From the NCBI GenBank assembly GCA_030066905.1, contig JASJAR010000021.1:1-64000 (forward strand): 64,000 nucleotides of DNA, read 5' to 3'. The number at the start of each line of letters is the position of its first letter. Within the stretch, counting starts at the first letter, position 1. Source of the DNA: Paracoccaceae bacterium. GTDB taxonomy: Bacteria > Pseudomonadota > Alphaproteobacteria > Rhodobacterales > Rhodobacteraceae. Shown in pieces: positions 25,701 through 36,050 of this stretch. The notes under the pieces were generated by a model, which did not search any database, had not been told where the DNA came from, and saw only the letters and a list, made by a program, of their open reading frames with translations. A program made the translations under genes and the position numbers.

Positions 25701-25775
25701 GCCCGGGTAGCTCAGGGGTAGAGCAGTGGATTGAAAATCCTCGTGTCGGTGGTTCGATTCCGCCCCCGGGCACCA
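25701..25775 (+). tRNA. tRNA-Phe(GAA), attachment site of the satellite-like island
   Basis: A full cloverleaf: acceptor GCCCGGG pairs with CCCGGGC, D arm GCTC...GAGC, anticodon loop TTGAAAA with GAA, T arm GGTGG-TTCGATT-CCGCC, and encoded CCA. The 3' half (25728-25775) recurs at 36004-36050, so this gene is the left attachment site of the island. Confidence 0.96.
25728..25775. repeat. attL: tRNA-Phe 3' half
   Basis: 48 bases from GGATTGAAAATCC to CACCA, repeated at 36004-36050. This copy has five Cs before GGGCACCA, which the acceptor stem requires. Confidence 0.93.
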
Positions 25776-25816
25776 CTTAAACTATTGAAATTAAACGGCT
25801 TCATTTTGTGTGCCTC

Positions 25817-26908
25817 TCAGGGTTTGACACTTTTGGGGAAGGGTTTGACAGTTTTCGACCGCCGTTTGTTCTCTTTTTCCCATTGCTCGATGGAGTGTTT
25901 GTTCCTCGCGGCGAGGTTCGCGTTGCGCGAATAATGGCCCGCCATGGAGGTGGTTTTCTGTCCCAAGAGGTCCGCGATAGCGCGTTCGTCCATTCCGGCT
26001 TCCCGTAGAACGGTCGCAATTGTGTGACGCAGCCCTTTGAGAGTGAGGCCGGGTTCGATCAGTTGCTTTTTCTCTAGGGACTTCTTGAAGCGCTGCCAGC
26101 TTGATTGCAGCCCATCATAGGTCCAAGGCCGACCGTAGGAGTTCGCAAGGATCGTGACGGCATCGTGGGCCGGTGCTGCCTTCATGGCCTCGCGGAGAGA
26201 GCGGCCAATCGGGACCGCATACTCGACGCCCGTTTTGCCACGCATTCCCCAAATCACATCGCCGTCGATCTTGTCTCGGCGAAGTTTGATCGCGTCGGAC
26301 GGGTCAAGGCCCGTGTTCATTATGAGCGCAACCACGGCCCGCAAATGGGCCGGTGCCCGATCTAGCACGGCGGCGCGTTCTGCATCGTTCCACGGGCGGT
26401 TGGCATAGCCCGCGTCCTTTGGGCGCTTCTTCTGGATCACGTCCTTGGCATAGTTCTTGTCGATCAGGCCGTGCGGAATACCGTGCTTGAAAACCTCGCT
26501 CAGAAGCGTGCGCACCATGTTGGCGCGACGCCAGCCGATCTTTGCGGCCGCGCGGTCGTGTATGCCCGCGATCAACGGTGTGTCGATAGACGACACCGGT
26601 GTATCCTCGATTGGTTTCAGGAAGTCGGCGCACTTGCGATAGTCGCGCTTTGTGGCGTCGGCCCTCTGAGCGAAATGGTCGGTCGCAAAGTAGTGCTTCA
26701 GAAGTCCGCCAAGCGTTCCGGGTTTCGGCTCGCGAGCTTTCTTCGCCTCGGCGAGCGCCGCAATGCGTTCGCACTCGGCAAAGAACTCGGCCGATCCAAA
26801 TGGAGCTTTCTCAAGATCGACTTTGTGGCCGGTCGCTCGATGGTAGCAACGGAGCTTGCCGTGCCGGTCAGTGAACACCTTGAAGCCTTTCACTCGAACG
26901 CGTGTCAT
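25817..26908 (-). CDS. int: Tyrosine recombinase (integrase) of the island
   Basis: 363 residues. It has an N-terminal arm-type DNA-binding part, a SAM-like core-binding domain (about 65-160) and a catalytic domain. Visible catalytic elements are the beta-hairpin Lys (WGMRGKTGVEYAVPI), the second Arg in LKGLRHTIATVLREAG and the Tyr in AGHYSRNAN. The usual first Arg in TGLR reads TGLDPSD, and the LGH His is LGQ, as seen in some alphaproteobacterial integrases. It lies 41 bases from tRNA-Phe, reading toward it, as expected for the att-linked integrase. Its ATG overlaps the stop of the excisionase-like gene. Confidence 0.9.
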   Translation of the reverse strand: MTRVRVKGFKVFTDRHGKLRCYHRATGHKVDLEKAPFGSAEFFAECERIAALAEAKKAREPKPGTLGGLLKHYFATDHFAQRADATKRDYRKCADFLKPIEDTPVSSIDTPLIAGIHDRAAAKIGWRRANMVRTLLSEVFKHGIPHGLIDKNYAKDVIQKKRPKDAGYANRPWNDAERAAVLDRAPAHLRAVVALIMNTGLDPSDAIKLRRDKIDGDVIWGMRGKTGVEYAVPIGRSLREAMKAAPAHDAVTILANSYGRPWTYDGLQSSWQRFKKSLEKKQLIEPGLTLKGLRHTIATVLREAGMDERAIADLLGQKTTSMAGHYSRNANLAARNKHSIEQWEKENKRRSKTVKPFPKSVKP

Positions 26909-27144
26909 TTCAGCCTCGCGAGAATTGCATCACGTTCGGTAGGCGCGTCGCCCTCTTTCATGGCGTCGATCCAACGGTCGAGATCGCGCTTGTCCCAGAG
27001 GAGAACACCCGGCCGCATTTCGACAGGTTGAACGGGGCAGGTCGTTTTGAAGTGCTTTGCCGGAAGGCCGGAGTAGCTCGCGGCCTCGGCCTGTTTCAAA
27101 CTCCGCTTTTCGACGACACTCAAATTGAGGGTAGCGTTAGCCAT
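26905..27144 (-). CDS. Small excisionase-like DNA-binding protein
   Basis: 79 residues from the ATG at 27144. It resembles AlpA/Xis-type winged-helix proteins: SLKQAEAASYSGLPAKHFKT as the helix-turn-helix, then a wing (MRPGVLLWDKRDLDRWIDAM) with the common W-x-x-x-D-L-D-x-W pattern. Proteins of this type direct excision and often activate satellite genes. It overlaps the regulator gene upstream by eight bases and the integrase gene downstream by four, so the three are read as one unit. Confidence 0.75.
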   Translation of the reverse strand: MANATLNLSVVEKRSLKQAEAASYSGLPAKHFKTTCPVQPVEMRPGVLLWDKRDLDRWIDAMKEGDAPTERDAILARLK

Positions 27145-27595
27145 CTTCGGCACCCGCAATCAACTCGTAGAGTTCCTTGTTTTCATCCTTAAGGCTGAGA
27201 GCGAGGCCCCACCGATCCACAAGGAATGCGGTCTCCACGCGATGTTTCGTTTCAAGATCGCCCAACCTGTCCAGGAGGCGTTGGCTCTGTCCACTCCCGG
27301 CTCGAACAACACAGGTCCAGCGGGTCACACCCTTCTTGCTGTTTTCTCTCGACATGGCCATGACTGTTGGAGCATCGTCACGCGCGATCTGGAATGCTGT
27401 CTTCTGATCCAAGCCATCAACAAATGAGAGTATCTTTTTGGCTAGGAAGAACGCGACAAGATCGGTTAGCGAGTAGTCCCATCGGTCATTTGTACCGACC
27501 TTTCCGTAGCCGATAAGAATGCGCCGACGGCGCAAGGCCCGGAGCGTTTCTGGCGGCCAGTCGCAAATTTTTGTAACGTGAGATGCGCTAAACAT
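27137..27595 (-). CDS. MerR-like regulator of the island
   Basis: 152 residues from the ATG at 27595, which has CTGGAG about nine bases upstream. The N-terminus FSASHVTKICDWPPETLRAL with RRRRIL and a following DYSLTDLVAFFLAKKI resembles a MerR-type winged helix. The C-terminal part (WTCVVRAG, LVDRWGLALSL) could be a sensor or dimer domain. A perfect 15-bp palindrome overlaps its promoter (27618-27656), pointing to autoregulation. An ATG at 27628 is in frame but falls at the expected transcription start. It probably sets the switch between maintenance and induction. Confidence 0.65.
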   Translation of the reverse strand: MFSASHVTKICDWPPETLRALRRRRILIGYGKVGTNDRWDYSLTDLVAFFLAKKILSFVDGLDQKTAFQIARDDAPTVMAMSRENSKKGVTRWTCVVRAGSGQSQRLLDRLGDLETKHRVETAFLVDRWGLALSLKDENKELYELIAGAEDG

Positions 27596-27617
27596 CAGCG
27601 ATGCTCCAGAACAAATG

Positions 27618-27656
27618 CGGTAACTCATATCCCGTATAGCAGGATATGAGTTACCG
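27618..27656 (-). promoter_or_regulatory. Perfect 15-bp palindrome over the regulator promoter
   Basis: CGGTAACTCATATCC (27618-27632) and GGATATGAGTTACCG (27642-27656) are exact reverse complements around a 9-base centre. On the minus strand TTGCAA (27662-27657), an 18-base spacer and TATACG (27638-27633) form a promoter in the same place. The site is therefore a good operator for the adjacent MerR-like protein. No T run follows, which argues against a terminator. Confidence 0.65.
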
Positions 27657-27665
27657 TTGCAAGTT

Positions 27666-28724
27666 CTATTCCGCCCCCCAATCGACGAGATTGAGTGCCA
27701 TTTCGGGATCGACACCGGCCTCTTTGGCCATGGTGAGCATCTGGACCACCCCGGCCGCCGCACGTGCTCGGCCGCCCGCGTCGAACGCCTGTAGCGGCCG
27801 CATCACGTCGAGTTTGACCTCGGGCGCGAGCTTCTCCGATGCTTCCTCGGCCATGAGCACCGCGAGCGGTTGCAGGGTCCATTGTGCGAGGTGTCGTTGC
27901 GCCTCACGGACGAGCGGACCCGTCGTCGATCCGTTGGCGAGTGACGGGAGCACGCCGAACGCCATGAGTATCGCCTCACGTGACGCTGCGAGGCTCTCGG
28001 CAAGGAGCACCTTGGAGATATCCGGCGTCATGTCCTGAGGGGTGACGGTCGCGGCCTGAGGGTGCGAGTGAGACGGGTCCAGAGCCATGAGGAGCACCTC
28101 GCCGTAGCGATCTCGCATCCCGAAGTCGGCCTTGAGCTTGTTGAATTGCTCGTCACCGATCCCCTCGATTGCAAGCGTCTTGGCACCTATCGCGGCGTTG
28201 CCATAGACGGTCTGCAAGCCGCTCTCGACCTTCTGCAATAGGCCAGCCGTCAGGCGTGCCCGGCGGAGCGGTGATTGGCCGTAGTACGGTGCCCCCGGAT
28301 CGGACGCGACCCGGAAGTGCAGCACCTCAGCCGCGAGCGCAGTCATGGACACGCCCCCGCCGATCTCTGGCACGGTTATCTGGTACGCGGTCGGCCGGGC
28401 GTTCCGGGTCCGCATGGACCAATCGGAAACGGGCACGAGGCCGTCGTCGCGGATCAGGAACACCGCCTCGCCTCGGAGCGCCAGAGAGCGCCCGGCGAGC
28501 GCGAGACACTGACGGGTGAGAAGGTCGGTGCCCTCCACGTCCGCGAGGCCGATCCCGCCCTCCCACAGGCTCACACACGATTGCGCGGTGCCGGTGAGTT
28601 CGGCGATCCCGCTCGCACCCGAGATATACGCTTCGCGGGCGGCGAGCATGGCCGAGGTGTAGCCCGCGCCGACGGCCCGGGTCTCCTCGGATTCACGGCG
28701 GCGGAAAAAGTCGAGCAAGCTCAT
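27666..28724 (-). CDS. Phage portal protein, HK97 type
   Basis: 352 residues from the ATG at 28724 (GGAGG upstream). Portal proteins form the dodecameric ring at the capsid vertex through which DNA enters. Family features are SLLDFFRRRESEE at the start, VLHFRVASDPGAPYYGQSPL near 150, ALDPSHSHPQAATVTPQDMT near 230, and the helical end AILMAFGVLPSLANGSTTGP near 270. It is slightly shorter than typical members. It is the last of the capsid-packaging genes and abuts the regulator's operator. Confidence 0.88.
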   Translation of the reverse strand: MSLLDFFRRRESEETRAVGAGYTSAMLAAREAYISGASGIAELTGTAQSCVSLWEGGIGLADVEGTDLLTRQCLALAGRSLALRGEAVFLIRDDGLVPVSDWSMRTRNARPTAYQITVPEIGGGVSMTALAAEVLHFRVASDPGAPYYGQSPLRRARLTAGLLQKVESGLQTVYGNAAIGAKTLAIEGIGDEQFNKLKADFGMRDRYGEVLLMALDPSHSHPQAATVTPQDMTPDISKVLLAESLAASREAILMAFGVLPSLANGSTTGPLVREAQRHLAQWTLQPLAVLMAEEASEKLAPEVKLDVMRPLQAFDAGGRARAAAGVVQMLTMAKEAGVDPEMALNLVDWGAE

Positions 28725-28801
28725 AGGAGCAATCCTCCTCGTGTTCGTGTGGGCGGCGGCGAGGCCGCTTGCCAATTCCGCTCCTCGATCTGCGCCTCGG
28801 G

Positions 28802-29344
28802 TTACGCCGGGCGCGTCACAGCCGAGATTTCGTAGAGCAAGGCCGACTTGACGGTGCGGATCAGCGCACCGCGTTGCGGCTGGCCGTCCTCGTCGGGTTG
28901 GCCGTCGTTCGGCTCCTCCTCGATCTCCTCGGCGTCCGGTTCGACCCGTGTGGGCGGTATACGGAACCCCGGCGAGAGGCCGAGGATCAGCCCGGCCGAG
29001 AACCCGGCGAGGAAGTCGCGGACATAGCCCACCTCGCGCATTTCGTTGGCGATCAGGATTTCGAGGAGCAAAGCCTCGTTGGTATCCGTGAGTGTTAGAG
29101 TGCCCGCGCCTCGGGAGGCGATAGGCCGGTCGTAGGAGTGACCGACTAGGAAATGGATATCCTCCTCGGGCCGGTCAACTCGATAGGCAAAGGCCCTCGG
29201 GGCGATCACCTCTTTGCGCGGCCGTCCGGTGCGCCCGCCATCGCTAAGCACAGCCCGTTTCCCATATGGGAAGCGGCCACGAAGGCGAGTTGCCTCGCCT
29301 TCGCGCCGGAGTTCGAGGCCGCCGTTATGAGCGCCCCAAAGCAC
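28802..29344 (-). CDS. Prohead maturation protease, HK97 family
   Basis: 180 residues. The fold is indicated by RGRFPYGKRAVLSDGG, then the catalytic-His region IHFLVGHSYDRPIASRGAG, the FLAGFSAGLILGLSPGF segment supplying the Ser, and the closing LYEISAVTRPA. The acidic linker EEIEEEPNDGQPDEDGQP is variable. It cleaves the capsid scaffold during head maturation. It starts two bases downstream of the capsid stop. It is separate from the capsid gene, as usual. Confidence 0.85.
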   Translation of the reverse strand: MLWGAHNGGLELRREGEATRLRGRFPYGKRAVLSDGGRTGRPRKEVIAPRAFAYRVDRPEEDIHFLVGHSYDRPIASRGAGTLTLTDTNEALLLEILIANEMREVGYVRDFLAGFSAGLILGLSPGFRIPPTRVEPDAEEIEEEPNDGQPDEDGQPQRGALIRTVKSALLYEISAVTRPA

Positions 29345-29346
29345 GA

Positions 29347-30633
29347 TCAGTCCTCCTGAACGCCGGTGAGAACCTCAAGCTGCGCCGGGCGGCCGACGGT
29401 AACGTCCGCCGTGACCAGACCCGTGAGCTTGAGAGCGCCGGATGGAGCCGAGGTGTACGGGTCGCGGATCATGTCGATCCCACCCCACATGCCGATGAAC
29501 ATCGGCGGGACACCACCCGGCGCACACGTCAGGAACGCCTTGGACGCCAGAGGCGACCCCGTAGCAGCCGCGAGCGCGTTGGCCGAGGTCACGACGTTTG
29601 CCGCGCCGAGGTTCTTCACGAGGCGATCCCATTCGGTCATGCCCGACCCGGCGTCGAACACGGTCTCGTCGAGTTCCTCCCACACGGAAGGACGGATCAG
29701 GAGACGAACCTGATCGGGCGAGGAGATTGCATTCGCGTCCATGAAACGGCGCACCGCACCACGGAATGCGGCCCACGTCGCGTTGGCCCCGATAGCCGTC
29801 TCGGTCACGCCGTAGGTGGACGCGCCCTCGACGACGCCGAGAGGCTCGCCCGAGCCGCCGGAACCGAGGAACATCGCCTTGTCGAGTTCCTGACCGATGG
29901 TGCCCGTCATGTCCCGGCGCACCGCTTGCTCGACGGCCGAACCACCCTGTTTCAGGGTACGGCGCGTGAGCGTCATGGTGATCCCGAGGGTGCTCACCGG
30001 CACGAGCGGCTTGTCCGTGGTCTCGAACGCCGTCGGCCCGGCAACGTCGCCGGTTTCGGTCGCCTGCCACCCGGCCGTAATCGAGGACGACACGACTGGG
30101 TATTCAACCTCGCCACTGTCGATATTGATCATCGTTGCGCCCATGCGGGTCGCCGCCGACTGAGCGAAGATACGGTCCACAATCGGCATGGTCCGCACGG
30201 GGTCGATCACGCCCGAGGCGATGGTCGTCCGCTTCTCAAGGTCCATGCCCTGAGGCGCGAGCGCGGCGTAGGGCACCGGGATACCCTGATACGATCCTTT
30301 GGACCGCATCTCGCTCACGATCTCGGCCGTGGCCCCGTCAAGAGCGCGACCGTCCTCGGCCAGGGCGAGCGCGACTTGGCGCACCTCGTAGTTCGAGATT
30401 GTCTCCGCCCATTCCTTGCTCTCGCGGGTTTCGAGTTCCTCGCCCGCCTCGCGGCGTTCGGTGTCCTCGGCCACGAGAGCCGCGCGGTAGCGCTTCTCGT
30501 TGGTCTCGTACTCGGTGGAGAGGTCCTCCATGGACCGGACCTCGTCCTCAGACGGTTTGTCCAGTTTGGTGAGTGCCGCGATCTCCTGCCGGATTTCCGA
30601 CTGGCGACGGCTGATTTTCACGCTGTCGAGCAT
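29347..30633 (-). CDS. Major capsid protein, HK97 fold
   Basis: 428 residues from the ATG at 30633 (AAGGAGACAGAGA upstream). The first 110 residues are a charged coiled coil (SEIRQEIAALTKLDKPSEDE), the delta/scaffold domain removed by the protease. The rest is the HK97 shell domain with VSTLGITMTLTRRTLKQG, ELDKAMFLGSGGSGEPLG and a C-terminal GVPPMFIGMWGGIDMI segment. Having its own capsid gene is what sets this island apart from helper-capsid-dependent satellites. Confidence 0.9.
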   Translation of the reverse strand: MLDSVKISRRQSEIRQEIAALTKLDKPSEDEVRSMEDLSTEYETNEKRYRAALVAEDTERREAGEELETRESKEWAETISNYEVRQVALALAEDGRALDGATAEIVSEMRSKGSYQGIPVPYAALAPQGMDLEKRTTIASGVIDPVRTMPIVDRIFAQSAATRMGATMINIDSGEVEYPVVSSSITAGWQATETGDVAGPTAFETTDKPLVPVSTLGITMTLTRRTLKQGGSAVEQAVRRDMTGTIGQELDKAMFLGSGGSGEPLGVVEGASTYGVTETAIGANATWAAFRGAVRRFMDANAISSPDQVRLLIRPSVWEELDETVFDAGSGMTEWDRLVKNLGAANVVTSANALAAATGSPLASKAFLTCAPGGVPPMFIGMWGGIDMIRDPYTSAPSGALKLTGLVTADVTVGRPAQLEVLTGVQED

Positions 30634-30956
30634 TCTCTGTCTCCTTCTGCTTCGACGGTTGGGGTTTCCTGCCTCAGCAGGGCTTGCCAAGCTTCACGCT
30701 TGGGGTCGGGTCGGCCGAGGCCGATCTCGATACGGGTCTTTGCCGCGTGGCAGGAGCGACAGAGAGTTTGCAGGTTGGAGGGGTCGAAGGCCCTCTCGGG
30801 CGCGTCTCGGACCGGCTCGATATGATCGACCTGTAGGTGACGCATGGAACCGCACTTCCGGCATTGGTGGCCGTCGCGGGCGAGCACTGAGCGGCGCAAC
30901 CGCCACCACTTCTCGATCTTGATGATCTTGGCGCTATGGCGGTCGTGGATCGTCAT
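30618..30956 (-). CDS. HNH endonuclease
   Basis: 112 residues starting at the ATG at 30956, inside the terminase stop. It has CRKCG near 32-36, then the HNH core LQVDHIEPVRDAP, FDPSNLQTLCRSCHAAKT near 41-73, the spacing of phage packaging HNH nucleases. In HK97-like phages the HNH protein assists terminase cleavage at cos sites. It overlaps the capsid start by 16 bases. This suggests cos-type packaging of the island. Confidence 0.88.
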   Translation of the reverse strand: MTIHDRHSAKIIKIEKWWRLRRSVLARDGHQCRKCGSMRHLQVDHIEPVRDAPERAFDPSNLQTLCRSCHAAKTRIEIGLGRPDPKREAWQALLRQETPTVEAEGDRECSTA

Positions 30957-32470
30957 GCCCACCCCACTTTCACGCCGCCAGTCGCGCGGCCTGTCCGGCG
31001 GGCACCCTCGGCCACGGCGAGCACCGAGGCGGCCGCCGGGTCGATCCGGCCGAGCGAGCGGGCCTTGGCGAGTTTGAGGTTGTTCGCAGGGTCGCGGAGG
31101 CACACCGCGTCGGCGAAGGCCGAACGTAGCAGGAGCGACGGGAGCGACTGGACCTTGCCGTCGTAGGCCGCCCGGCGGAACCTTTCGCAGTCCTCGCCAC
31201 CGTCGCGGAAGCCTTGACCCCGCCAAATGACGGGAGCGTGGAAACCCACCTTGTCGAGCGCCTCGCCGATCTCGGCTTGCTTGTATCGGTCGGCGCAAAG
31301 AGCGCCTATGACCTGTCCCTCGACCCGCGCAATGACGGCTCGCATCCACGGGGCGACCGGCACCGTCTTGTCGCCAAGGGTGGCAAGCTCGCCGCGCTCC
31401 TCCATCTCGACGTAGCGGTTGCCCACGCTGTCGGCCTGACCGCGATCCGCGAGACCGGGGTTGCCGGGGAAATGGCCGTAGCACTCAAGGCGGCCCGTCT
31501 TGGGCCAGTAGTACGCGGCGGCCGACATGGACGCCGAACCCCCGAGGTCGATCCCGATAATCACCTCACCGTCGCGCGGAGGTGGTTCGGCCGCCTCGCA
31601 GTTGAGCCATTCGTCCACGGTGAGGAGGCTATCGCGGGTCTCGCCCGAGACGCGCTCGTTGCGATTGTAGAGGCGGAACGAGTTGAGCGCCGCACCGCCG
31701 CGAGAGAGCGCCCGGGCGGCCTCGGTCTTGAGCCACTCGACCGAGGAGCCGATACCATGCTCGGCCCCGGGGTTCGCCTCCAAGAGTGTGGCGAGATCGT
31801 CGGCAGGTTGGCCGGGAGACGGCCGGTGCTCTTGGACGTAAGTGCCGGGCGGCGGTTCGTCGATCCACCGGGAGAACGGGTGGGCGTCCGTTGCCGCCGA
31901 AGTCGAGATGATCAGCGCACGGCCGCCCCGCTTGCCGAGACCTGAGAGGAGCGCGTGTTCGAGGTCGTCGCCCTTGTCGGCCTGCCAATGGCCGCGCTCG
32001 TCCATGAGGCAGAGCGTGGGAGCCGAGCCGAGGCTCGACCGGCCGTCGGCCGCGATCACCCGCAGGAAATGGCTCGGCTCTTTGGGGTGGGCCTCGAACT
32101 CGATCTCTAGGCGGGGCGAGCGTCGAACCGTAAAGCACATTTGGTCCCACTCAGATAGGGACCGGATGAAGCCGACCACGAAGTCGAACGCGATCCGCCC
32201 TTGGTCCCGGGTTCGCGCCACGATGATGATCTCCCGGCGGGGCTGATCGTCCCACTTGCCCATGAGCGCCCCGAGCGCGATCCCGGCCGAGAGAGCCGTC
32301 TTGGCGTTGCCCCGTCCGATGGATAGCACGGCGACTTGGGTGTCGTCCGCGAGGGCACCCTTAACGAATTGCTTTTGGAACGGGGCGAGCTTGATCGGCT
32401 CTCCCGCACGTGGCCCCTCGGGGATCGAGAGGCTCTCGAGGAACTGGATTGCAGCGGTCGAGGGCTTCAT
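30953..32470 (-). CDS. Phage terminase large subunit
   Basis: 505 residues from the ATG at 32470 (GGGAGAGG upstream). The N-terminal ATPase has an adenine-motif region APFQKQFVKGAL, Walker A SIGRGNAKT near 52-60, Walker B PTLCLMDERGHW near 148 and the coupling motif ALIISTSAA near 180. The nuclease domain shows IIGIDLGGSASMSAAAYYW near 312, the RNase-H-type metal Asp. It packages DNA into the procapsid. No small subunit gene precedes it; the only frame upstream is the divergent 63-residue one. Confidence 0.9.
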   Translation of the reverse strand: MKPSTAAIQFLESLSIPEGPRAGEPIKLAPFQKQFVKGALADDTQVAVLSIGRGNAKTALSAGIALGALMGKWDDQPRREIIIVARTRDQGRIAFDFVVGFIRSLSEWDQMCFTVRRSPRLEIEFEAHPKEPSHFLRVIAADGRSSLGSAPTLCLMDERGHWQADKGDDLEHALLSGLGKRGGRALIISTSAATDAHPFSRWIDEPPPGTYVQEHRPSPGQPADDLATLLEANPGAEHGIGSSVEWLKTEAARALSRGGAALNSFRLYNRNERVSGETRDSLLTVDEWLNCEAAEPPPRDGEVIIGIDLGGSASMSAAAYYWPKTGRLECYGHFPGNPGLADRGQADSVGNRYVEMEERGELATLGDKTVPVAPWMRAVIARVEGQVIGALCADRYKQAEIGEALDKVGFHAPVIWRGQGFRDGGEDCERFRRAAYDGKVQSLPSLLLRSAFADAVCLRDPANNLKLAKARSLGRIDPAAASVLAVAEGARRTGRATGGVKVGWA

Positions 32471-32508
32471 GCGAGCCTCTCCCGAACAACTGAACAAAAG
32501 ACGGGACC

Positions 32509-32700
32509 ATGCAAATGAAGGAATTGGAGGCCAGAATTGGTGGGCTAGAGATCGTAGTTGGCGAGTTGCTGATTGCCTTGCGAGAAAGTGACAGCGCCGT
32601 CGGGACCGACTTAAAGGCCCGATTGGAGCGGCAACTCAAAGACGACGGCCACAGCGTCTCCCAACACAATGCGATCCTGAATTTCTTGGTCTTGCTCTGA
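32509..32700 (+). CDS. Small coiled-coil protein, only plus-strand gene of the island
   Basis: 63 residues from the ATG at 32509, starting MQMKELEARIGGLEIVVGEL and predicted to be a short coiled coil throughout. GACGGGA is a weak ribosome site. It begins 38 bases from the terminase start on the opposite strand. The even charge pattern looks real. It could be a divergently expressed helper or packaging modifier, but the evidence is thin. Confidence 0.4.
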   Translation: MQMKELEARIGGLEIVVGELLIALRESDSAVGTDLKARLERQLKDDGHSVSQHNAILNFLVLL

Positions 32701-32870
32701 CCGCACAGGGCGAACAAGAGTGCCCGCCCCGCGTATCTGCCCCCTCCCAAAGACCGGCCATTGGGACCAGATTTGAAGCGTGCGACGACGCCGAGAGGAG
32801 GCGTCGTCGCACTCAGCACGGGGAAACGCGAGTCGGAGCACCCATAAACCCATGCTGAAACTTGTGATGC

Positions 32871-33085
32871 TGCGACACGTGCGACAGGAGTTTCTATATT
32901 CCCACGCACCATATGTTCCACGGGGCTACATACAGCCCCGATTAAGGCTTTCAGTCCTACGTTAGTGGCCTTCTGGAATTTCGTGTCGCACGTGTCGCAG
33001 AACCATTTCACCCAATCAAAGCAATGGGTTATCTGCGACAGGACACGTGTCGCAGACGTGTCGCAAACGGTGATCTCCTGTCGCA
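32871..33085. repeat. Iteron-like cluster of TGTCGCA motifs, candidate origin
   Basis: TGTCGCA or its complement TGCGACA occurs eight times in 215 bases: 32871, 32880, 32984, 32993, 33034, 33048, 33059 and 33079. Several copies extend to CACGTGTCGCA. The cluster lies between the terminase and primase genes, directly past the primase stop, with a ninth copy inside the primase gene at 33182. This position suits a replication origin bound by the primase-helicase. The stretch 32701-32870 shows no gene. Confidence 0.55.
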
Positions 33086-33088
33086 GCA

Positions 33089-35269
33089 TCATCGCTCAGC
33101 CTCCTTGAGCGTGTATCGGACCACATCGAGATCGACCTCTACGCCCTCGCGGACACATACGGTCACGGCCCTAGAGCGCCCTGCGACACGAAACTTCACC
33201 CGCTCCTGTCGCGGTGATAGACCAAGACCCCGGAGCACTTCGGCGACGGCTTTCGGCCCTTTCGCCCCGGCCGGGATATGCTCGATAGGCCAAAGGTGCC
33301 CGCGCACCTCGTCAATCGAGACCCACTCGCGTTCGCCGACGCAAGCCGCGATCTCCTCGCCAGCCGGGCCAAGCCCCGCCTCGACGATCCGCTCGAAGGC
33401 GCTCGCCCGAGGTACGCGCATCCGCTCGCGCACAAGCCTGAGCGGGTATTGCAGGAGCCACGCGGCGACTTGCTCAGCACCCCCGTTTTCGAGGTAGTCC
33501 CAGAGAGGCCGGAAGTACCGCTCGGGGTTCGCGGGCAGGAAGTCGCTCTCAACCGGGAAATAGCGGCGGCTGTCGCGGTCGATATGCAAGGCGTCGGCCT
33601 CGTTCACGAAAAACGCGATGTTCACCACGTTGTCGATCTCGGTTACGTCAACGCCCTTGCGCTCGAACGGAATACGGTCGGGTGGCCCCGCGATCAGCGG
33701 CTTGAGCCGCTCGGCCGCGTCCTTTTTGTCGTGCCAACGCCCACCTTGGCGCTCTTGCACAATCGCGAGGAGGCACCGGTCGAGCCATCCGTTGAATTGG
33801 CTCGACACCATTTGCAGGGTGAGGCCCTCCCGGGCGTAGCGGCCGAGGTGTTTCGTAAGAGGGTGAAAGAGCGTGTCCTTGCCGCTCCCTTCGCGGCCGA
33901 TCAGCACCGGTGCCCAATTGACCTTGCGGCCGGGGTTTTGCAGGACGAACGCCATCCACTCGACGAGCCACTCGCGGTCAGCCGCATCGGGCACGATCCG
34001 GGCCATGTGGTCCAACCAAGGGCGCGGCTCCGAGCCGTTCCAAACCGGCGGTACGAGCGGCTCCCACGTGTTGATGTAGATACCTGTCGGATCGTCGATC
34101 TCGGCAGGACGGCCGGGGGCGAACATCTTACCGTCGAACCGGGGAAGATCGCCATTCAGCCACCCAAGGCGGTCGTTCATTCTCCGGCCGATCTTCTTAC
34201 CCTTGAGATCGCGCATGTCCCACTCGAATGTGAGCCTCCACATCTCGGACGGATTGCGTTCGCTGTAGGTGCGGCGGTCCCAATAGTTGCCGCCAACGAG
34301 GCAGAAGCGGCCCGCCTCCGGCTTGACGGGATTGGCGACCGGCTCCTCCTCGGCACGCCACCCGCCTTCTTTGGCAAACTTGATCAGCGTGGCGAGCGTT
34401 GTGCCGCCCGGTTGGCCGCATGGCTCATCCCAAACGCGCCGGTTGAGGTGCGGCTCGTAGTTGCCGTCCCTTGTTGAGGTCCAGTCGTCCAGAATGTCCC
34501 ATGCCGCCTCGCCGAGGCCGCGAGGCTCGAAAGCCTCTTTGACCGCCTTGACGATCCCGACCCACGTCCCGCGCTCGTCGAACCGGTCGTCGTTCTCGAT
34601 GTGGGCGAACATCTCCTCAAGGTCGTTAATCGAGATGTGCGCGAACTCGACCGCTACGTCGTCGGTCGGGGCCTTCCGCACCGTGCGTTTCGCTTTGAGG
34701 CCCTCGTCGCGACGATAGATCAGCGCATCGACCACGAACGCGCCCCGCGACCACTTGAGCCGCTCAGGACGCAGCGTGAGGGCCATGCCCTTGGCTTGCT
34801 CGGCCTTCGCCATGAACCCGACGCCATGGCCCTCCCGGCGGTCGGAGAGCGCCTCGTCGCCTTCCTCTCGCGGCATGATCAGCCGCAAGCCAGTGCCGCT
34901 CGTCGAGGGTTCGATATAGCCGTCGTACCCTTCGAGGATCGAAGCGATCTCTGGATCTGTGATTTCGCCGGTCGAGGAGTTGCGGCAGTCGTCGAGATCG
35001 AAAACGACAAAGGCCGATCCGGCCCGGGGCACGAACCCGACCTCGAAACGCAAGATCGGGCAGAACGGCTTTTTCAGAAACGCGGCGTCGTCCTCAGCGT
35101 TCTTGTTGACCGTGGCAAGGCGGTTCGGGTCGTGATTGTAAGCGTCGCGCAACTGTAGCGCCTCGGCGAGCGTCGAGATCGCCGCCTTGTCGGTGTTCGC
35201 CGCACGCCAAGGCTTCCCGGCCCTCGCGGGGAACTTACCCGGCTTCTTGCCTTCACCATGATCCACCAC
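33089..35269 (-). CDS. Primase-polymerase/helicase replication protein
   Basis: 726 residues as read from the GTG at 35269. The N-terminal part has an archaeo-eukaryotic primase-like core (FVVFDLDDCRNSS with the metal acids; STSGTGLRLIMP). The C-terminal part is a DUF5906-type SF3 helicase with Walker A GREGSGKDT near 455 and ESDFLPANPERYFRPLW near 610. Similar two-domain proteins replicate phages and satellites. The true start is probably upstream: a GTG at 35355 overlaps the previous stop and encodes MNMLSRDQHRKLIKRS in another frame. This suggests a one-base frameshift near 35300. Confidence 0.82.
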   Translation of the reverse strand: MVDHGEGKKPGKFPARAGKPWRAANTDKAAISTLAEALQLRDAYNHDPNRLATVNKNAEDDAAFLKKPFCPILRFEVGFVPRAGSAFVVFDLDDCRNSSTGEITDPEIASILEGYDGYIEPSTSGTGLRLIMPREEGDEALSDRREGHGVGFMAKAEQAKGMALTLRPERLKWSRGAFVVDALIYRRDEGLKAKRTVRKAPTDDVAVEFAHISINDLEEMFAHIENDDRFDERGTWVGIVKAVKEAFEPRGLGEAAWDILDDWTSTRDGNYEPHLNRRVWDEPCGQPGGTTLATLIKFAKEGGWRAEEEPVANPVKPEAGRFCLVGGNYWDRRTYSERNPSEMWRLTFEWDMRDLKGKKIGRRMNDRLGWLNGDLPRFDGKMFAPGRPAEIDDPTGIYINTWEPLVPPVWNGSEPRPWLDHMARIVPDAADREWLVEWMAFVLQNPGRKVNWAPVLIGREGSGKDTLFHPLTKHLGRYAREGLTLQMVSSQFNGWLDRCLLAIVQERQGGRWHDKKDAAERLKPLIAGPPDRIPFERKGVDVTEIDNVVNIAFFVNEADALHIDRDSRRYFPVESDFLPANPERYFRPLWDYLENGGAEQVAAWLLQYPLRLVRERMRVPRASAFERIVEAGLGPAGEEIAACVGEREWVSIDEVRGHLWPIEHIPAGAKGPKAVAEVLRGLGLSPRQERVKFRVAGRSRAVTVCVREGVEVDLDVVRYTLKEAER

Positions 35270-35351
35270 GGCGTAAAGGAAATAGTTGCGCTCTTCGGCT
35301 GCGCGGCCGAACGCTTGATCAACTTCCGATGCTGGTCACGGGAGAGCATGT

Positions 35352-35825
35352 TCACTGGACCGGGCCCTCGACAGGTTCGAGAGCGAAGTGCAAATCAACT
35401 GCCCAATCGAGCGCGTCGTCGTGGCTCTTGAAGACCATGAAGCACTTGCGCGGATCGCCTTCGAGGTCGGCGCATTTCGGATGCGACAGCACGAGGAGCA
35501 TTCGGCCATCGTTCAACGGATAGGCATGGGCCGAGAGCGCGTTGGGGAAGCCGTAGGCCCACTGAGCGCCCACCCAATAGGTGACGCACCGGTCGTCCAC
35601 GCTCGCGTCGCCCTGAAAGAAACTGTGGCACCAATCTTTCGCGACTTCGCGATCACCCGCGAAACCAATGAGATGCCCGCCGTCCACGTCGGGGCCATCA
35701 AGTACGGCAATCGCTCGGCCGCTAAAGAGGGTGATGTCGGCACGCGGACCGCCTTCCTCGTAGCCGATAATCGCGACCGTCCCGGTTGTCTCGACTGGTC
35801 GTGTGCCTGTGCTGATGGTGTCCAT
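35352..35825 (-). CDS. Unknown island protein, 157 aa
   Basis: ATG at 35825, first gene of the minus-strand run. It is acidic and Trp/Gly-containing (WCHSFFQGDASVDDRCV; YWVGAQWAYGFPNAL), probably one globular alpha/beta domain, with no signal or membrane segment. I do not recognise it. Its stop overlaps a GTG (35355) that I take as the original primase start, so the two were translationally coupled. An imperfect palindrome lies just upstream. Confidence 0.6.
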   Translation of the reverse strand: MDTISTGTRPVETTGTVAIIGYEEGGPRADITLFSGRAIAVLDGPDVDGGHLIGFAGDREVAKDWCHSFFQGDASVDDRCVTYWVGAQWAYGFPNALSAHAYPLNDGRMLLVLSHPKCADLEGDPRKCFMVFKSHDDALDWAVDLHFALEPVEGPVQ

Positions 35826-35841
35826 TGCCCGCCTCGATTTC

Positions 35842-35883
35842 CGCTAACTCCGTTAACGCCGATAAGCGTGAACGGAGTTAACG
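35842..35883. promoter_or_regulatory. 18-bp inverted repeat upstream of the island operon
   Basis: CGCTAACTCCGTTAACGC (35842-35859) and GCGTGAACGGAGTTAACG (35866-35883) are inverted repeats with two mismatches and a 6-base spacer. They lie 17-58 bases upstream of the ATG at 35825. The TAACTC/GAGTTA half-sites also occur in the 27618-27656 palindrome, so one regulator may bind both. Confidence 0.5.
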
Positions 35884-36003
35884 GGCAATAGGGTAGAGAG
35901 CACCCGGGCAGGTTTGACAAAGAACCGGTAAGTATTTGATCTGTCGTAGTGGGTTTGACGCGCCTCAAGGGCGGAACCCGTTGATTTCGCGAGGCTTAAT
36001 GCC

Positions 36004-36050
36004 GGATTGAAAATCCTCGTGTCGGTGGTTCGATTCCGCCCCGGGCACCA
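36004..36050. repeat. attR: tRNA-Phe 3' half with one C missing
   Basis: Identical to 25728-25775 except that four instead of five Cs precede GGGCACCA. There is no 5' half here, so it is not a tRNA gene. It marks the right end of the island. The following 36051-36262 holds no gene. Confidence 0.93.

Follow-up and report, generated by a model that had tools for sequence, protein, structure and literature searches.

We analyzed a 64,000-nucleotide stretch of the draft genome of a Paracoccaceae bacterium (contig JASJAR010000021.1, positions 1 to 64,000; hereafter the window), in which a 10.3-kb island occupies a tRNA-Phe gene. Its gene content points to an integrated capsid-forming phage satellite, self-packaging and tail-borrowing, which here would most likely dock on an adaptor supplied in trans, because the island has no adaptor gene of its own and its portal carries a third type of clip; we put the probability of this reading at about three in four. 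The island lies between 42-nt attachment (att) repeats found by a direct-repeat search, one at 25728-25769 within the tRNA-Phe (gaa) gene (25701-25775, plus strand, ARAGORN) and a distal copy at 36004-36045. The copies are 98% identical and the unit is 10,276 bp, as the initial annotation had proposed. Every island gene named in that annotation is on the minus strand, and family matches were obtained for the tyrosine integrase (25817-26908; PF00589, 4.1e-16; phrog_1, 3.7e-37), portal protein (27666-28724; PF04860, 1e-15; portal fold in PDB comparison), S78 prohead protease (28802-29344; PF04586, 1.4e-10), HK97 major capsid protein (29347-30633; PF05065, 8.7e-16; start set at the family's MLDS), HNH endonuclease (30618-30956; PF01844, 3.8e-11), large terminase TerL (30953-32497; phrog_9, 7e-57; also PF20441/PF03354) and primase-helicase (33089-35269; DUF5906, 4.4e-16; PriCT_2; phrog_1156). 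Read along the minus strand, the order was a 157-aa open reading frame (ORF), primase-helicase, a 0.6-kb gap, TerL, HNH, capsid, protease, portal, a MerR-like protein, an AlpA/excisionase-like protein and the integrase. Pfam and PHROG profiles recognised no tail, lysis, small terminase (TerS) or adaptor gene among the window proteins, absence here meaning no profile match, which agrees with the gaps first reported.

The data showed that the island belongs to a large family of candidate capsid-forming satellites in Alphaproteobacteria. Capsid relatives at 55-59% identity were present in five other genomes, with two more weak ones (101 genomes searched). A TerL alignment found relatives in 37 of 394 sampled Rhodobacteraceae genomes at E <= 1e-120, the island's own genome included, in 163 cases in a one-genome-per-species collection (best 80 used), and in at least 494 cases among at least 600 stretches of viral contigs (best 80 used), where a single-sequence capsid scan had given nothing. 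The best 80 of the 163 were mostly Rhodobacterales, but also Rhizobium and kin, Reyranella, Ponticaulis, Altericroceibacterium and one Salinisphaera. We analyzed 164 loci, namely the window, five genome stretches and 158 of 160 kept loci after removal of two duplicates; they are partly non-independent, because some isolates are present in both collections. All five core genes were complete in 144 of the 164 (profile search, six frames), and many of the remaining loci were short or cut contigs. The order TerL-HNH-capsid-protease-portal was common to the island and the other 143 complete loci, and integrase, replication and adaptor genes have been exchanged among members in many genera.

The size of these islands is nearly constant. 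When att sites were called as repeats that flank the core and either touch a tRNA gene or lie near an integrase, 73 loci were att-bounded, 70 of them distinct once identical terminases were removed (window counted). Of these, 69 measured 9,317-11,731 bp (all 70: 62 touched tRNA genes, of 21 kinds); the mean was 10,366 bp, the standard deviation 492 and the median 10,317. The outlier (L087:8396-12711), bounded by att repeats in tRNA-Trp, spans only 4.3 kb; it has gp6, terL and an integrase but lacks HNH, capsid, protease and portal, and is probably a deletion derivative. Seven att-bounded islands came from a second sample (80 viral contigs), six at 10.2-10.8 kb and one at 13.7 kb. Three contigs of the first sample carry the cassette without an integrase match and close on themselves: L146 (9,923 bp, exact terminal repeat of 99 nt), L126 (10,640 bp) and L137 (10,699 bp), the latter two with offset repeats; no exact terminal repeat was seen among the 80 contigs of the second sample. 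These three, which encode large replication-like proteins (RepB_primase in L126), are possible plasmid-like members of the family. Since islands with any integrase or replication genes and integrase-less circles share one size, near 10.3 kb, a head-capacity limit may be inferred.

All relatives with a complete core, as far as both ends could be judged, encode one head-tail adaptor of two types. The first, gp6, lies upstream of terL and matched PF05135 and phrog_442 (head-tail adaptor); the second, c6, lies between protease and portal and matched no named family. The profiles of both matched p008 of phage 16-3 (c6, E 2.6e-5; gp6, E 7.5e-14), and their comparison with each other was weak (probability 30%). 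For the AlphaFold2 model of c6 (pLDDT 84) the first six PDB matches were neck proteins of phages 7-7-1 and Milano and the adaptor of RcGTA, a gene transfer agent (GTA), at E 0.003-0.017 (none at E <= 0.001) and probability 0.92-1.0, with TM scores of only 0.3-0.4. Both c6 and gp6 are adaptors; c10 and HTJ matched head closure Hc1. Among the 144 complete loci, 91 had c6, 52 had gp6, none had both and one, the window island, had neither; a six-frame profile search of this island gave no c6, gp6, c10 or HTJ match. In the second sample the 73 complete loci comprised 37 with c6, 35 with gp6, none with both and one with neither (L286). The L286 contig starts only some 100 nt ahead of terL, a start that would truncate any gp6 gene, and its protease and portal genes are directly adjacent, which is the arrangement of gp6 loci. 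The initial annotation had taken the gene order and the absence of adaptors as a distinct layout; the order is in fact the family norm, and the absence is the exception of one locus against 143. Its proposal of a capsid-forming satellite is supported by the islands of equal size that share one cassette, by the conserved sequence ahead of terL, and by Pfam matches of 95 non-core proteins (36 islands) that include neither tail nor lysis families. The adaptor type has changed at least 5 times on the TerL tree and at least 18 times on the capsid tree, and therefore the adaptor module moves. An adaptor hidden in the 157-aa ORF, the MerR-like protein, HNH, protease or portal was rejected, as none showed profile similarity (the primase, TerL and a 63-aa plus-strand ORF lay outside this comparison).

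We then compared 124 distinct portals (76 from c6 loci, 47 from gp6 loci and that of the window). Portals of c6 and gp6 loci diverge most at residues 191-265 (numbering of the window ORF) and less in the first 35. The window portal departed from the others at residues 181-255 (z-scores of -5.6 to -10.4 in 25-residue steps) and elsewhere never fell below -2.8. For residues 185-255, which we call the clip (28011-28223, minus strand), the nearest neighbour shared the adaptor type in 76 of 76 c6 and 47 of 47 gp6 portals; with the remaining residues it did so in 96%. The best identity of the window clip was 0.31 versus 0.68 for the next lowest member, and the window portal outside the clip also reached 0.68. 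When the window clip was compared with 188 portals from the two samples, none scored above 21% of its self score; in a control with up to 40 sampled members the corresponding median was 91% and the minimum 69%. A frameshift was rejected as the origin of the odd clip, since of the three frames the native one agrees best with the family (60 versus 26 and 31); third-position GC is unchanged in the clip, and first- and second-position GC are below the rest of the portal. The limits of the clip rest on covariation and on its place between predicted stem helices (160-175 and 242-255), because model confidence within the segment itself is low (pLDDT about 40-60). Neither the window clip nor the portal matched known phages. 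In RcGTA, as PMC7296036 describes it, the C-terminal hook of the adaptor contacts a clip helix. Had c6 simply been lost, a clip of the c6 type would be expected to remain; the third type suggests another docking partner, and clip drift after adaptor loss is the main rival to this interpretation.

Under the satellite reading, an active helper phage would cause the island to excise and to replicate from its iterons, HNH and TerL would make their cut at the TGGTCCCAATG site and fill a small head, built of the island's own capsid protein, with one genome of about 10.3 kb, and the helper would supply tail and lysis. In the relatives head and tail would be joined by a single adaptor that the satellite itself encodes; it comes in two exchangeable types, each matched to the portal clip. 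The window island has neither type and its clip is of a third kind, so its most likely docking partner is an adaptor in trans, probably the helper's. A more far-reaching version, which we advance only tentatively, is that clip and adaptor form an exchangeable plug that selects the helper's neck, and that the window island has given up its adaptor and uses its third clip to dock on a foreign neck (of a helper phage or, conceivably, of the host GTA), its heads being cargo capsules. The family offers a natural experiment on fitting a borrowed tail to a head, clip and adaptor type agreeing in 123 of 123 distinct portals of the two adaptor types, and the choice of helper tails by satellites becomes directly testable.

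The family also offers a predicted packaging site. The 9-mer GGTCCCAAT was found in 65 of 69 distinct islands when profile-matched genes were masked, and the commonest 9-mer outside this site in 27. Its consensus TGGTCCCAATGCC lies a median of 75 nt ahead of the TerL match (213 places, both samples). Sixty-five of the 73 att-bounded islands have one forward and zero reverse copies, four have more and four have none, and the density was 74 copies per 750 kb of island versus 4 per 626 kb of flank. The window copy, TGGTCCCAATGGCC (32756-32769, minus strand), is in the 0.6-kb gap between primase-helicase and TerL, 271 nt before the TerL match, and TGGTCCCAATGNCC occurs once in the 3.69-Mb draft genome, as this copy. 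Thus TGGTCCCAATG stands before terL in nearly all att-bounded islands, the window island among them, and is a candidate cos. For 80 viral loci listed with the 14-mer TGGTCCCAATGCCC, among at least 120 stretches, a family terL followed on the strand of the 14-mer within 1.2 kb in 53, lay elsewhere in 2 and was missing from 25. Nine TGCGACA/TGTCGCA iterons (32871-33188), the last in the 3' end of the primase gene, form a candidate replication origin; the whole 64-kb window has 13 copies versus 8.4 expected.

Tail genes were also sought in the relatives. From 505 non-core genes of 71 islands, 95 proteins of 36 islands were drawn from the first 150 of 269 candidates of at least 75 aa, those left out being mostly opposite-strand ORFs judged spurious. 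No tail, lysis or small-terminase family was among the 23 Pfam families matched by these 95, the only structural one being a head completion protein, and no tail family was among 25 of 79 PHROG families listed. One of the 95 matched Arr-ms (rifampin ADP-ribosyltransferase, E 3.7e-5), possibly cargo or chance.

No helper was identified, because portal and terminase family searches of the own draft genome showed no tailed prophage. PF04860 portals were confined to three places, the window island, an element of contig C5 and a cluster of contig C14; PF05136 gave none, PF06074 gave none while its control was silent too, and PF03237 gave only the C14 terminase. The C14 cluster (L211), judged by gene order and sizes, is an RcGTA-like GTA. 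The C5 element (L017:246-9319) differs from the window island but likewise bears a capsid gene; it spans about 9.1 kb at tRNA-Ala with an 18-nt repeat and encodes an integrase, an HTH_17/AlpA-like protein, capsid, protease, portal and a 182-aa protein, with a 721-aa gene on the opposite strand. No terminase or HNH was recognised in it, and its capsid had no close relative in the viral contigs. Its 182-aa protein was rejected as a trans adaptor, as no similarity was found. The helper group could not be traced through the adaptors either, because tblastn of c6 and gp6 against known phages gave no match.

Several points count against the satellite reading or limit it. Excision, packaging and transfer are predictions from sequence. 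The window island may be inactive, because it is the sole adaptor-less member among the 144 complete loci. The families tried showed no tailed prophage in its draft genome (with the PF06074 control silent). The exact 9-mer is missing from 4 of the 73 att-bounded islands, 25 of the 80 listed viral loci with the 14-mer lack a family terL, and the TGGTCCCAATG site is possibly a promoter or operator instead of cos. One of the seven att-bounded islands of the second sample reaches 13.7 kb, and islands far above 20 kb would escape detection, because the flank was at most 10 kb per side.

Among the alternatives, the one that survives best is that the island is a dead or dying family member which lost its adaptor, whose heads take no tails and whose clip drifted afterwards. 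Its solitary lack of an adaptor and the missing helper prophage fit such a history, and the protease-portal gap of 84 nt may be a scar (57 nt or less in 51 of the 52 other c6-less loci). However, every recognised gene is an open frame, the candidate cos and iterons are kept, and the portal equals those of other members in conservation except in the clip, which alone differs and without a frameshift, so we regard decay as unlikely. That the tails come from the host GTA and not from a phage is improbable: the own genome does have an RcGTA-like cluster and no tailed prophage was found, and the RcGTA adaptor is one of several proteins that the c6 model resembles, but the window clip is unlike the clip of the genome's own GTA portal (z -1.0), and one relative is in the gammaproteobacterium Salinisphaera. 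RcGTA-like clusters are not known beyond a single class, to which Salinisphaera does not belong. A deletion remnant of an ordinary prophage was rejected as highly improbable. The gene types are those of HK97-like phages, but the same cassette recurs at near-constant size in 143 other complete loci, in many genera and with exchange of integrase, replication and adaptor genes; the family TerL forms one group apart from the phages compared, and capsid matches in the phage collection were at 24-28% identity (15 of 18 matches listed). The initial annotation had named related prophages with the cassette continuous with tail and lysis genes as the sign of such a remnant; none was found, 69 of 70 islands closing within 9.3-11.7 kb, although this does not extend to a gene-by-gene reading of the longest viral contigs. 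The least credible alternative is an autonomous phage of very small size whose tail and lysis genes escaped recognition. Many small ORFs in these islands match no known family, but beyond core, integrase and replication genes there are only short and varying ORFs, with no shared cluster fit for a tail module.

To place the satellite among known systems, we compared it with one capsid-forming phage-inducible chromosomal island (cf-PICI), that of E. coli EDL933 (NZ_CP008957, 1680329-1694465), which by gene content we take to be EcCIEDL933. Both have an integrase, a small regulator, a primase-type replication protein, capsid, protease, portal, HNH and TerL and no tail genes, and satellite-family profiles matched the EDL933 protease (63 bits), head closure (35), HNH (21), connector (15) and, weakly, portal (13). 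In contrast, the EDL933 element spans about 14 kb from integrase to TerL versus 10.3 kb here, has TerS, connector and head closure genes, and has the order capsid-protease-portal-closure-connector-HNH-TerS-TerL instead of the family's TerL-HNH-capsid-protease-portal. Its TerL scored 44 bits with the family profile, versus 206 for a Pusillimonas plasmid, 145 for phage 16-3 and 138 for PAJU2; its capsid did not match the family profile, and its stretch has no near match to the TGGTCCCAATG site beyond chance. In a TerL tree, 45 family members formed one group (SH-aLRT 100), apart from seven phage or plasmid terminases and the EDL933 cf-PICI, with long outgroup branches. For this one element, then, TerL and capsid speak against kinship, while the protease and head closure profiles match. 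Judged by the signature genes that PMC10448857 and PMC10690885 give for cf-PICIs, the island has an integrase with att sites, a primase-type replication initiator, capsid, protease and portal, HNH and TerL, and no tail-gene match. For an AlpA homologue, also a signature gene, the island offers a marginal PHROG candidate (E 0.0014) that Pfam does not match. A small terminase was not recognised (Pfam/PHROG scan of window proteins; 95 proteins of relatives), nor was a connector, which 143 of the 144 complete loci do have. Because these two were not recognised and kinship was compared with one element only, we do not file the island as a cf-PICI. The best reading of the sequences is that it would work like one, its lineage being set apart from the compared cf-PICI by TerL and capsid.

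As far as PMC11389934 describes them, cf-PICIs form three clades, and PMC10803314 places capsid-forming satellites mainly in enteric bacteria and Firmicutes, with an average of about 14 kb. Two other comparisons were by description. MulchRoom and MiniFlayer, Streptomyces satellites with their own capsid and packaging genes, differ in hosts, virulent helpers, terminal repeats and TerS, according to PMC10690885. The cf-PISP satellite-plasmids of Vibrio are, as given in PMC13230959, circular, integrase-less and capsid-forming like contigs L146, L126 and L137, but measure about 15.8 kb, carry head-tail adaptor and closure genes, parA and repA, and group with gammaproteobacterial cf-PICIs. RcGTA-like agents share an HK97-type head and similar portal and adaptor folds; they differ in having a full tail cluster, and the GTA portal of the own genome scored only 14.7 bits with the satellite portal profile. 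The literature searched showed no alphaproteobacterial capsid-forming satellite, although an earlier mention is possible, VEIMEs and tycheposons being outside the comparison; the word "satellite" is absent from PMC8224337, PMC9437464 and PMC10783043, on alphaproteobacterial phages or prophages.

Two proteins named in the initial annotation proved weaker than its other assignments. The 84-aa AlpA/excisionase-like protein (26905-27159, minus strand) matched nothing in Pfam and a single PHROG family, marginally (phrog_10396, E 0.0014), and its kin adjoin similar integrases in 13 other loci. The MerR-like protein (27137-27595, minus strand; start chosen by eye) had no significant match in Pfam or PHROG profile searches and weak similarity to two relatives; a MerR_1 match was found in a protein near the integrase of relative L013, not in the island's own protein. 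The 157-aa orphan ORF (35352-35825, minus strand), which with the iterons and the pre-terL site adds to the features first listed, had no family match and no relative among 194 other genomes or in the viral contigs. In L115, L123 and L149 the att repeat is equidistant from both contig ends (72/72, 46/46 and 111/111 nt), which might be an assembler trace of occupied and empty sites coexisting in the sample. L028 and L119 have a second AlpA and integrase pair just beyond one att site of a Salipiger island at tRNA-Phe, as if elements had inserted in tandem.

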